64,000 nt of DNA from Thiobacillus denitrificans ATCC 25259 (GTDB taxonomy: Bacteria; Pseudomonadota; Gammaproteobacteria; Burkholderiales; Thiobacillaceae): assembly GCF_000012745.1 (NCBI RefSeq), contig NC_007404.1, positions 620,001 through 684,000 on the forward strand, given 5' to 3'. The translations under genes and the position numbers were made by a program. Within the stretch, counting starts at the first letter, position 1; each line of letters begins with the position of its first letter. Below the pieces are notes generated by a model. The model saw only the letters and a program-made list of their open reading frames with translations. It made no database searches and was not told the DNA's origin. This document shows, one piece after another, positions 6,825-11,531 of the stretch.

Positions 6825-8234
6825 ATGCTTCCCACTCTGGTTCTTGTCGGACGCCCGAACGTCGGCAAGTCCACGCTCTTCAATCGCCTGACCGGCACCC
6901 GCGACGCGCTCGTCCATGACCTGCCGGGCATGACGCGCGACCGCCACTACGGTCGCGGCCGCATCGGCGGCAAGCCCTATCTCGTGGTCGACACGGGCGG
7001 TCTCGAACCGGTCGTCAAGGATGGCATCCTGGCCGAGATGGCGCGCCAGACGCTGCAGGCCATCGACGAAGCCGACGCGATCATCTTCATGGTCGACGCG
7101 CGCGCCGGCGTGACCCCGCAGGACAAGGTCATCGCCGACCGACTGCGCCGCGTGACGTCGCCGGTCCTGCTCGCGGTCAACAAGGCCGAAGGCATGAATC
7201 GCGCCGTGGTGACCGCCGAGTTCCACGAACTCGGCCTCGGCGAGCCGCTCGCGATCTCGGGCGCGCACGGCGACGGCATCGCCGACCTCGTGGCCGAGGC
7301 GCTGGCGCCCTTCCCCGAAGAGGAAGAGGCGAGCGACGATTTCGGCGTGCCCAAGATCGCGCTGGTCGGCCGACCCAACGTCGGCAAGTCGACGCTCGTC
7401 AACGCGCTGGTCGGCGCGGAGCGCGTGATCGCCTTCGACCAGCCGGGAACGACGCGCGACTCGATCTACGTCGACTTCGAGCGGGGCGGCAAGCCCTATG
7501 TCCTCATCGACACCGCGGGCGTCCGTCGCCGCGGCAAGGTGTTCGAGACCGTGGAAAAATTCTCGGTCATCAAGACCCTGCAGGCGATTGAGGACGCCAA
7601 CGTCGTGGTGCTCGTGCTCGACGCGCGCGAGAACATTTCCGAGCAGGACGCGCATCTCGCGGGCTTCGTGCTCGAAACCGGGCGCGCGCTGGTCGTCGCG
7701 ATCAACAAGTGGGACGGTCTCTCGGCCGAACAGCGCGACGACGTCAAGCGCGACATCGGACGCAAGCTCGCTTTCCTCGACTTTGCGCGCTTCAATTACA
7801 TCTCTGCGCTCAAGGCGAAGGGCCTGGAGAACCTGCTCAAGGATATCGAGGCCGCACACGCCGCGGCCTTCATCAAGCTGTCGACGCCCAAGCTCACGCG
7901 CGTGCTCGAAATGGCCGTCGAACAGCATGCGCCGCCGAAGAACGGGCTGTTCCGTCCGAAGCCGCGCTACGCGCATCAGGGCGGCAAGAACCCACCCGTC
8001 ATCGTGCTGCACGGCAACGCGCTCGAAGGGCTGCGCGACGACTACAAGCGCTATCTCGAAAGCAGCTTCCGCAAGGCGTTCAAGCTGCAGGGCACGCCGC
8101 TCCGAATCCAGATCAAGGAGGACGAGGGCAAGAATCCGTTCGAAGGCAAGAAGCGCGCGCCGCTCAGCGAAAGCGAGGCGACGCGGATGCGGCGCAAGAA
8201 GCGCGTACGGCGCAAGGTCTACGGCGCCGACTGA
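6825..8234 (+). CDS. der: Der (EngA), double-GTPase ribosome assembly factor
   Basis: Essential GTPase in 50S subunit maturation. Two tandem G domains are visible: the first P-loop GRPNVGKST at residues 8-16 with [14 protein letters not shown] and NKAE; the second P-loop GRPNVGKST near residue 182 with [18 protein letters not shown] and NKWDGL. A C-terminal KH-like domain ([15 protein letters not shown]) and a basic tail ([12 protein letters not shown]) finish the 469-residue protein. In many betaproteobacteria hfq and then hflX follow; here two minus-strand hypothetical genes and a GalT-like gene come next. Confidence 0.98.
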
Positions 8235-8277
8235 ACGCCGTCAGCGCTGGCGGGCCGGGGCGCAGCCGTGCTCAGGC

Positions 8278-8529
8278 TCAGTCCAGCCAACGCACTAGGT
8301 AAAACAGCCTGAACCCTTCGGACGAGCGCGACGGCCCGCTCGCGACCGCGGCGTGCCGGTGCTTCGCCGGATCGGCGTGCGCCAAGGCCTCGCCTTCACT
8401 GGCGTAGACCTCGACGACGCCCTCGGGGAAGCGCTTGCGGTTCTTGCCCGCAGGCGAATAGATCACCACCGCCGCGGTCCCGACGACCGTGGCTTCCACG
8501 TCGGAAAAGAGGCTGCTCGTCTGCGGCAT
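8278..8529 (-). CDS. Hypothetical protein, 83 residues
   Basis: Small soluble protein, not recognised. It has no signal peptide or membrane helix. It contains short beta-strand-like segments (ATVVGTAAVVIYSP, GVVEVYASEGEALAHAD, GFRLFYLVRWLD). No clear Shine-Dalgarno lies before the ATG, so both start and reality are less certain than for the neighbour at 8569-8850, which ends 39 bp upstream on the same strand. The pair lies opposite in direction to der and the GalT-like gene and forms a small inserted island. It could be a genuine lineage-specific gene or a chance frame. Confidence 0.5.
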   Translation of the reverse strand: MPQTSSLFSDVEATVVGTAAVVIYSPAGKNRKRFPEGVVEVYASEGEALAHADPAKHRHAAVASGPSRSSEGFRLFYLVRWLD

Positions 8530-8568
8530 TCGGCCGGCTTTAAACGATGCCGCGCTGAAGACGCTGCA

Positions 8569-8850
8569 TCAGTGGGTCTTTTTCGGGATGCTGCTGATCT
8601 TGACCGCGTGACTGGTCGGCGTCTCATCGGTGAAATGCGGGCGCTCGTCGAGCGTGCGTCCGGTGAGCCGGGCGAGTTCGGTCTCGCGGCTCGAAATCAC
8701 CACCAGACAATCCTTGATCCCGAGAACCGTGGCTTCGGAGAGCGGACTCGGGTTGCCGTCGCGCGGCGCGGTATCGCGCACGATAGACGTGAGGGTCTTG
8801 CGCATCATGCGCATGAGGCGCTGTTCGTCATGCAGGGCTTTTTCGTCCAT
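8569..8850 (-). CDS. Hypothetical protein, 93 residues
   Basis: Unrecognised small protein. The start ATG at 8850 is preceded by a GGAG ribosome site on the minus strand. The N-terminal half is charged and helical (EKALHDEQRLMRMMRKTLT). The second half contains GIKDCLVVISSRETELA and a region rich in Thr and Asp. There is no signal peptide or membrane helix. The gene lies between der and the GalT-like gene on the opposite strand. Its 5' end faces that gene across 171 bp (8851-9021), where divergent promoters would be expected. Confidence 0.6.
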   Translation of the reverse strand: MDEKALHDEQRLMRMMRKTLTSIVRDTAPRDGNPSPLSEATVLGIKDCLVVISSRETELARLTGRTLDERPHFTDETPTSHAVKISSIPKKTH

Positions 8851-9021
8851 GGGGGGACTCCGGGAATACGGCGGTGAACCGGCATTGTCGGCGTGGCGGC
8901 GCAGCCCGTCAACGCAAGCCCCCGATCGGTGCGAGGATAAACGGGCCGATTGGGGGCATAAGCAGATTGAACCGCGCGTGGGCGGCGTCTGTTTTATGCT
9001 TGCCGCTGAAGGAGAAGCAGC

Positions 9022-10122
9022 ATGTCAGATGCATCAAAACCCGACAGCAACGAAGTCCGCGAGATCCGCATCAACCCCGTCGTGCCGGGCGAATCGGTCC
9101 TCGTTGCCACGGCGCGCAGCATGCGGCCGAAAAAGGCCGAAGAGCTCGCGCCGCGCGACACCCGCAAGCACGTCGAGACCTGCCCGTTCTGCCGCGGCAA
9201 CGAGCACAAGACGCCACCTGCGATCCTGACCTGGCCCGACACCGGGGACTGGCAGATCCGCATGGTCGAGAACCTCTACCCCGTCCTCGGCGACGACCGC
9301 GCGCAGGCGGGATTCACGTTTGGCCTGCAGCAGACGATCGACGGCTACGGCCGGCACGAGGTCATCATCGATCACTCCGAGCATGGCATCGCGGTCCAGG
9401 ACATGGCCGAGACGCATCTCGCCGCGCTGTTCGGCGTCTACCAGACGCGCATGCGCCAGCTCTTCGACTCCGACGAGCGCCTGAAATACGTGCTCGTGTT
9501 CAAGAATTTCGGCCCGGCGGCCGGGGCGTCGATCCCGCATACGCACAGCCAGGTCATCGCGATGCCCGTGGTCCCCGAAAACGTCGACGCCGAGGTCAGG
9601 AACAGCGCCACCCACTACGCCAAGCACCACCACTGCATCTTCTGCGCGCTCATCGATGAGGCGCTGACCTTCGAAGCGACGATCTACGACCGCAATTCCG
9701 GTGCGGTGCGGCGCAAGATCAACGTCGGCCAGTACGTCGTCGAGCGCGGCGAGAAGTTCATCGCCATCAAGCCGTTCGCGAGCCGCTACGAATGGGAGGT
9801 GCACATCCTGCCGCTCGCGCATCAGGCCGATTTCCTCGACGTCCGCGGCGAGGACCTCGCCGACCTCGCGCGCGTCATGAAACGCACGATGGCACGGCTC
9901 GACGCGGTCATCGGCGGCGCCCAGTACAACTTCTTCCTGCACTCGGTGCCGCACGATGCCCAGCAGGCGACGCACGCGCCGAGCTATCACTGGCACCTCG
10001 AGATTTGCCCGCGGACCTCGATCCCGACCGGCTTCGAGTTAGGGTCGGGCCTTTTCGTCAATACGATCAATCCCGAGGAGGCCGCGGAGCGGCTGCGCAG
10101 CGTCGAGCTGCCGGCGCGCTGA
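9022..10122 (+). CDS. GalT-family nucleotidyltransferase; candidate adenylylsulfate:phosphate adenylyltransferase (APAT)
   Basis: 366 residues, about 41 kDa. Belongs to the GalT branch of the histidine-triad superfamily, whose members form a covalent nucleotidyl-histidine. A zinc-type pair CPFC is at residues 54-57. The active-site region is GPAAGASIPHTHSQ with H173-T174-H175-S176-Q177; classical GalT has Pro between the two histidines. A second HHCIFC cysteine pair lies near 202-207, and HWHLEICPR is near the C-terminus. Ribosome site GAAGGAG stands before the ATG. No other Leloir-pathway gene is nearby (galU at 38040 is distant). A GalT-like protein of this size from Thiobacillus denitrificans is known as APAT (ADP sulfurylase), which converts adenylylsulfate and phosphate to ADP and sulfate. 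Family is firm; substrate is inferred. Confidence 0.85.
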   Translation: MSDASKPDSNEVREIRINPVVPGESVLVATARSMRPKKAEELAPRDTRKHVETCPFCRGNEHKTPPAILTWPDTGDWQIRMVENLYPVLGDDRAQAGFTFGLQQTIDGYGRHEVIIDHSEHGIAVQDMAETHLAALFGVYQTRMRQLFDSDERLKYVLVFKNFGPAAGASIPHTHSQVIAMPVVPENVDAEVRNSATHYAKHHHCIFCALIDEALTFEATIYDRNSGAVRRKINVGQYVVERGEKFIAIKPFASRYEWEVHILPLAHQADFLDVRGEDLADLARVMKRTMARLDAVIGGAQYNFFLHSVPHDAQQATHAPSYHWHLEICPRTSIPTGFELGSGLFVNTINPEEAAERLRSVELPAR

Positions 10123-10361
10123 GGTCTGGCGGGGGGAGCGGCGCGGCGGCGGCCGCGCGCCGCCACTTCGACTAGAATGGGAGCCGCCCCGAATTTCGTT
10201 TCCCTGCGGCTCGATGAACGCCAAGCCTGTGTTTTTTCTCTCCCCCTTCCCGCTATCGCCTGTCGGTGCACCGGGCTCGAACGTCCCGTCCGACGCCTTC
10301 GGGAGGCCAGCGGGTGATGCCCGCTCGCGGATGAAGCAGCCGCGGAGGCGGGGAATCAGCG

Positions 10362-11531
10362 TTGTTTGATCGACACCAGGGTGGGGAGCGCGTCGTTCTC
10401 GCCGCGCTCGACCTGGGTGACCCCGATTTCGCCGAGAGCATGGCCGAACTGCGGCTGCTGGCGCGCGGCGCGGGCCTCGACATTCGCGGGGAAGTCCAGG
10501 GCAGACGCAGCCGCCCCGACGCGGCTCTCTTCGTCGGGAGTGGTAAGGCCGACGAAATTGCGGCGCTGGTCGCCGCGACCGATGCCGAAGTCGTGATCTT
10601 CAACCACGAACTCTCACCGGCGCAGGAACGCAACCTAGAACGCCGGCTGCATTGCCGCGTCATCGACCGGGTCAGCCTGATTCTCGATATCTTCGCGCGG
10701 CGCGCACGCAGCGCTGAGGGCAAGCTGCAGGTCGAACTGGCCCAGTTGCAGCATCTGTCGACGCGTCTCGTGCGCGGCTGGACCCACCTCGAACGCCAGC
10801 GCGGCGGCGTCGGGATGCGCGGACCCGGCGAAAAGCAATTGGAGACCGACCGCCGCCTGATCGGAATCCGCGTCAAGGCCTTGCGCGAACGGCTCGCCAA
10901 ACTCGGCAAGCAGCGGCGGACCCAGCGTCGGTCGCGCAGTCGCCACCGCGTGCTGTCGGTCGCGCTGGTCGGCTATACCAATGCTGGCAAATCCACGCTG
11001 TTCAACGCCTTGACGCGCGCCGGCACCTACGCTGCCGACCAGCTGTTCGCCACGCTCGACACCACGACGCGGAAGATTTTCCTCCCGCGCCTGGCCGATG
11101 CCGACGAGCCGGGGAGCGGAGAAGTCGTGCTGTCCGATACCGTGGGCTTCATCACCCGTCTGCCGCACGATCTCGTCGCGGCCTTTCGCGCGACCCTCGA
11201 AGCGACGGCCGAAGCCGACCTTCTGCTGCACGTGATCGATGCCTCGAGTCCGGTCCGCGAGCGCCAGATCGAGGCGGTCGATCAGGTGTTGCGCGAGATC
11301 GGCGCCGACGCCGTGCCACAGCTCAGGGTCTACAACAAACTCGATCTGACGGCCGCCGCGCCGGGCGTCGGGCGCGATGAGTATGATAGACTGCAGAGCG
11401 TTTATGTGTCCGCGCAAACCGGCGCCGGGCTTGAACTTTTACGCGATGCCCTGTCAGAAACGCTGCTCGCGGCACGCGAAACGGGTGCATCGGAAACGCC
11501 TTCTTCCCCATCCACAGTTCACTCTGCATAA
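10362..11531 (+). CDS. hflX: HflX, ribosome-rescue GTPase
   Basis: GTPase that splits stalled or heat-damaged 70S ribosomes. 389 residues. The N-terminal HflX domain (about 1-190) has the glycine-rich signature RGPGEKQLETDRR. The G domain has P-loop GYTNAGKST, the switch DTTTRKI, DTVGFITRLP and NKLD. Start is TTG at 10362, giving the family-typical opening LFDRHQGGERVVLAALDLG; an in-frame stop at 10332 and a GGAGG ribosome site before it support this choice. hflK follows 6 bp downstream. hfq, the usual upstream partner, is absent here. Confidence 0.96.
   Translation: MFDRHQGGERVVLAALDLGDPDFAESMAELRLLARGAGLDIRGEVQGRRSRPDAALFVGSGKADEIAALVAATDAEVVIFNHELSPAQERNLERRLHCRVIDRVSLILDIFARRARSAEGKLQVELAQLQHLSTRLVRGWTHLERQRGGVGMRGPGEKQLETDRRLIGIRVKALRERLAKLGKQRRTQRRSRSRHRVLSVALVGYTNAGKSTLFNALTRAGTYAADQLFATLDTTTRKIFLPRLADADEPGSGEVVLSDTVGFITRLPHDLVAAFRATLEATAEADLLLHVIDASSPVRERQIEAVDQVLREIGADAVPQLRVYNKLDLTAAAPGVGRDEYDRLQSVYVSAQTGAGLELLRDALSETLLAARETGASETPSSPSTVHSA

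Follow-up and report, generated by a model that had tools for sequence, protein, structure and literature searches.

A GalT-superfamily gene between der and hflX of Thiobacillus denitrificans as the likely gene for adenylylsulfate:phosphate adenylyltransferase

The locus and its product

The DNA analyzed here, a window of 64,000 nucleotides (G000:C1:620001-684000), comes from the one-contig, 2,909,809-base genome of Thiobacillus denitrificans ATCC 25259, and the gene of interest is an open reading frame (ORF) at 9022..10122 on the forward strand. It has 366 codons and an ATG start, is preceded by a probable ribosome-binding site, AGGAG, read from the sequence at 9010..9014 (+), and lies between der, encoding the EngA GTPase, upstream (6825..8234, +; from the ORF list and a family match) and hflX, encoding another GTPase, downstream (10362..11531, +; its putative start is TTG, the first start codon listed). 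By sequence and predicted fold, the 366-residue product is a member of the GalT superfamily; it is most likely APAT, an adenylylsulfate:phosphate adenylyltransferase that would split adenylylsulfate (APS) with phosphate. No second match to the protein was found elsewhere in the genome (E <= 0.001), and 2849 proteins among 8000 scored candidates matched it at the same threshold, well beyond chance.

A sequence-only reading of this DNA had recognized a GalT-family protein with the motifs CPFC and HTHSQ, and both were confirmed, at residues 54-57 (9181..9192, +) and 173-177 (9538..9552, +), respectively. It had also placed HTHSQ where classical enzymes have HPHxQ, and the aligned E. coli GalT (PDB 1hxq) indeed reads HPHGQ. 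In this alignment C52, C55, H115, H164, H166, and Q168 of the E. coli enzyme correspond to C54, C57, H121, H173, H175, and Q177, so that all six catalytic and metal positions of GalT are retained, and each is invariant in a 63-row alignment. By the roles that we take the aligned E. coli residues to have, C54, C57, H121 (9382..9384, +), and H173 are probable zinc ligands, and H175 is the predicted AMP-accepting nucleophile. A second histidine motif, HWHLE (residues 323-327; 9988..10002, +), occurs in the C-terminal, HIT-like half and is present in 117 of the 120 listed relatives. The computed mass of the product, 41,130 Da, agrees with the APAT subunit, which we take to be a GalT relative of ~41 kDa, as the sequence-only reading had likewise supposed.

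Family membership and fold

The name under which such proteins are usually filed, where one is given, is that of a galactose enzyme (JGI and some NCBI entries) or a DUF, and no mention of DUF4931 or DUF4921 was found in the literature searched. A true galactose-1-phosphate uridylyltransferase would also explain why the product scores above the cut-off of the Pfam model GalP_UDP_transf and why, in a second fold comparison, E. coli GalT tied with ADP-glucose phosphorylase. Both NCBIfam GalT models, however, were missed (102.8 of 448 bits and 78.1 of 102.1 bits), HTHSQ rather than the E. coli HPHGQ occurs in 120/120 listed relatives, and no galactokinase was detected in the whole genome (TIGR00131, E <= 0.001), extending the earlier remark that no galactose genes lie close by. 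A galactose role was therefore rejected, and we give it almost no credence. The sequence-only reading had named a closer match to true GalT as the finding that would speak against APAT; by sequence, the best match among solved proteins was instead the ADP-glucose phosphorylase of Arabidopsis (E 1.4e-53), with E. coli GalT far behind (1e-16).

This Arabidopsis enzyme, At5g18200, raises an alternative that the sequence-only reading had not considered, namely that the product is an ADP-glucose phosphorylase, converting ADP-glucose and phosphate to ADP and glucose-1-phosphate and serving glycogen rather than sulfur metabolism. It is the best match by sequence, ranked first when the predicted fold was searched with Foldseek, and is stated to cleave ADP-glucose in the excerpted text of PMC4136846 and PMC11066809, although an excerpt of the latter, a review, also terms its function unknown. 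The fold comparisons, both Foldseek and the second look, name no substrate, and sequence identity to the Arabidopsis enzyme is just ~32%. In a tree, At5g18200 joins the HTHSQ clade with support of 94/80, a placement not relied on here because the program flags a long branch. Since the closest solved relative is itself an ADP-glucose phosphorylase, homology alone cannot tell APAT from that enzyme, and the genomic distribution of the protein has to be considered.

Co-occurrence with sulfur and glycogen genes

The genome of T. denitrificans holds sat, three dsrA genes, glgC, and two aprA genes over the cut-off, with aprB- and sat-like sequence close to one aprA and aprB- and aprM-like sequence close to the other, and the gene at 9022..10122 is located ~290 kb from the closest aprA. 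The two aprA genes fit the two APS reductases, of lineages I and II, that are listed for ATCC 25259 in the part of PMC2211403 consulted.

Distribution was surveyed in a class sample of 274 genomes, T. denitrificans included. A close type of the protein (at least 62% identity) was found in 43 genomes, in two pieces in G045 and in fragments in G267, and a distant type (<= 36% identity) in 13, giving 56/274 with any match. Presence of aprA was scored over the cut-off (80/274) with four contig-end pieces counted in, and a threshold of E <= 1e-60 was applied to dsrA (92 genomes, 87 of them also over the curated cut-off) and to sat (161 genomes, 160 of them over it); the glgC set comprised 147 genomes, five members being assigned by best E-value.

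The gene for APS reductase is associated with the protein, with aprA in 36/43 genomes with the close type as compared to 48/231 without it, or 33/43 versus 47/231 when the contig-end pieces are left out. Similar contrasts were seen for dsrA (38/43 versus 54/231), for aprA or dsrA (41/43 versus 57/231), and for sat (39/43 versus 122/231). The p-values given below ignore kinship, an effect that counting by family lessens and does not remove; by this count aprA occurs in 29 of the 32 families with the protein and in 25/140 without it, with the denominator of 172 taken from the highest-numbered family label among the class genomes. As a negative control, aprA over the cut-off was found in 0/13 class genomes with the distant type alone. 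An order-level repeat with 310 genomes, again including T. denitrificans, gave aprA in 8/8 genomes with an intact protein, in 60/300 without the protein, and in 2/13 with the distant type; two genomes with fragments of the protein, 67-68% complete, were without aprA.

The same survey bears on ADP-glucose phosphorylase. In line with a role in glycogen metabolism, glgC is present in the T. denitrificans genome itself and is enriched overall (32/43 genomes with the close type versus 115/231 without, p 0.004). Among aprA genomes only, however, the association is gone (27/36 versus 34/48, p 0.81), and among the few aprA-free genomes it is not significant (5/7 versus 81/183, p 0.25). Conversely, when only glgC-free genomes are considered, aprA is still associated with the protein (9/11 versus 14/116, p 2e-6), these being the 11 of 43 protein-bearing genomes without glgC over the cut-off, three of which have partial glgC matches with E 1e-79 or better. 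Taken with the sat and apr genes that neighbor the gene in three genomes (below), these results leave ADP-glucose phosphorylase as an improbable identity of the product.

Some genomes are exceptions to this pattern. The aprA gene is missing in seven of the 43 protein-bearing genomes (G001, G043, G099, G131, G178, G184, and G270), and five of these (G001, G043, G099, G131, and G184) possess dsrA without aprA over the cut-off, with the qualification that a contig end of G131 carries an aprA scrap of 38 bits and that G099 is only 73% complete. G043 and G184 (loci L117 and L118) are near-complete genomes of one genus that hold the protein, dsrA, and sat and no aprA over the cut-off. The five dsrA-bearing genomes speak for an AMP-transferring phosphorylase with a broad or different main substrate (Ap4A, for example, or both APS and ADP-glucose), for which APS cleavage would be a side activity, and remote fold matches to Ap4A phosphorylases also point in this direction. 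Overall, we consider an enzyme of this kind very improbable.

Gene neighborhoods

The sequence-only reading had suggested that a dissimilatory sulfur enzyme might sit inside a conserved housekeeping locus, and the setting does recur. In 80 loci of relatives, with flanks of up to 6 kb and some ended by contig edges, der precedes and hflX follows the gene in 44; der alone is present in seven more, hflX alone in four more, and neither in 25. Gammaproteobacterial relatives display a different setting of dapA, an ACT-protein gene, and a peroxiredoxin gene, families that were checked in single examples. Both settings are of a housekeeping kind and uninformative as to substrate, and operon logic was thus rejected as a clue. 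Neither apr nor sat was close to the gene in any of these 80 loci within the flanks.

Across all loci examined, apr and sat adjoin the gene in three genomes only (G102, G219, and G126), which represent two families; here 2 to 2.5 kb separate the gene from aprA, and the same cluster includes sat. In G102 and G219, which belong to a single genus, a HIT-family gene comes next after the gene, and beyond it lies an opposite-strand run of sat, an aprM-like gene, aprB, and aprA. In G126 the gene is oriented divergently to sat, a putative aprB-like stretch, and aprA. Family matches confirmed the gene assignments at L114 and L116, and the name aprM in L111, L114, and L115 is presumptive, given from position. 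For random placement in 2.5 Mb, the chance that 36 genomes would include two independent cases within 4.5 kb is ~0.0075, as calculated post hoc. The association with aprA and the adjacency to sat and apr in three genomes together provide independent support for the link to sulfur metabolism, and the APAT assignment made in the sequence-only reading is supported.

The HIT-family gene beside the apr-sat cluster is directly 3' of the APAT gene (L114:8157-8567 and L115:7981-8391, the latter assigned to the family via 92% identity); APS is cleaved by certain members of the HIT family. An adenylate kinase gene is found ~2.5 kb downstream of the APAT-like gene in G044. Many loci with hflX also contain an additional gene: a relative of the GAF-GGDEF-EAL gene L007:7139-8950 (also L042:7185-9011) is situated between the APAT gene and hflX in 30 of the 48 loci holding both, as opposed to just ~240 bases between the two genes in the window.

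On the other side, two small ORFs on the reverse strand, 8281-8529 and 8572-8850, occupy the space between der and the APAT-like gene of the window; their third-position GC is coding-like, and neither has a Pfam match. Although hfq usually neighbors hflX, no ORF between der and hflX (8234-10362) was recognized as hfq, and the sole Hfq match of the genome maps ~990 kb away, at G000:C1:1618279-1618464.

Proposed function

APS reductase generates APS from sulfite and AMP; APS and pyrophosphate yield ATP via ATP sulfurylase, APS and phosphate yield ADP via APAT, and adenylate kinase forms ATP from ADP (excerpts of PMC8551704 and PMC8232776). Much in keeping with this scheme, AprBA of T. denitrificans would supply APS with two exits, one in which Sat passes the AMP moiety to pyrophosphate, yielding ATP, and another in which APAT passes it to phosphate, yielding ADP that adenylate kinase may then convert to ATP and AMP. 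Within APAT, AMP from APS would be transferred onto H175 with release of sulfate and subsequently be handed from H175 to phosphate to produce ADP. The substrate, the covalent histidine-AMP step, and the physiological role of the product are inferred here. Since sat accompanies the protein in nearly all of the 43 genomes, APAT appears to be an addition to Sat and not a replacement for it.

We also lean towards a broader view, in which the whole HTHSQ clade, currently filed as GalT or DUF4931, would constitute an APAT family: an overlooked, phosphate-driven second exit for APS beside sat, present in about one sixth of the sampled class genomes and recognizable by the genome marker HTHSQ plus FKNFGPxAG[AG]S. 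APAT is an already known enzyme, and the finding at 9022..10122 is not new in kind; the present analysis contributes a test of APAT against ADP-glucose phosphorylase by distribution, the relatives linked to sat and apr, and the recognition that relatives are named as galactose enzymes or DUFs. Because of such names, the APAT gene is easily missed. Activity of APAT has been reported in sulfur oxidizers, for example Acidianus ambivalens (excerpt of PMC8551704). In PMC6397845, the single genome survey of sulfur oxidizers checked, Apr and Sat appear in the pathway legend and the term APAT is absent. With a sequence marker in hand, it becomes testable which sulfite oxidizers use phosphate to make ADP as opposed to pyrophosphate to make ATP, and for what reason sat is also present in 39 of the 43 protein-bearing genomes.

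Comparison with known systems

Among characterized proteins, Arabidopsis At5g18200 (1z84, 2h39) is the relative at ~32% identity, with ADP-glucose as its substrate. E. coli GalT (1hxq, 1gup) combines HPHGQ with a uridylyl substrate, whereas the product of 9022..10122 has HTHSQ and scores under the GalT model cut-offs. A further comparison is with an HPHSQ sister group (P0121-P0240), 30-37% identical in the 63-row alignment, which has most Pfam domains in common with the T. denitrificans protein and, like it, CPFC (119/120 listed); it differs in reading HPHSQ in place of HTHSQ in 107/120 listed (58/68 plus 49/52). One sister-group protein, 36% identical, adjoins a trehalose synthase-type glycosyltransferase gene (L132:7418-8455 and 8643-9893), and this single locus hints at a nucleotide-sugar role for the sister group.

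Finally, the known system most like the one proposed is APAT itself, or 'ADP sulfurylase', reportedly described from T. denitrificans by Brueser, Selmer, and Dahl in 2000. The gene at 9022..10122 comes from what is likely the same species, although the strain used may differ, and for this reason is probably that very gene or its ortholog.
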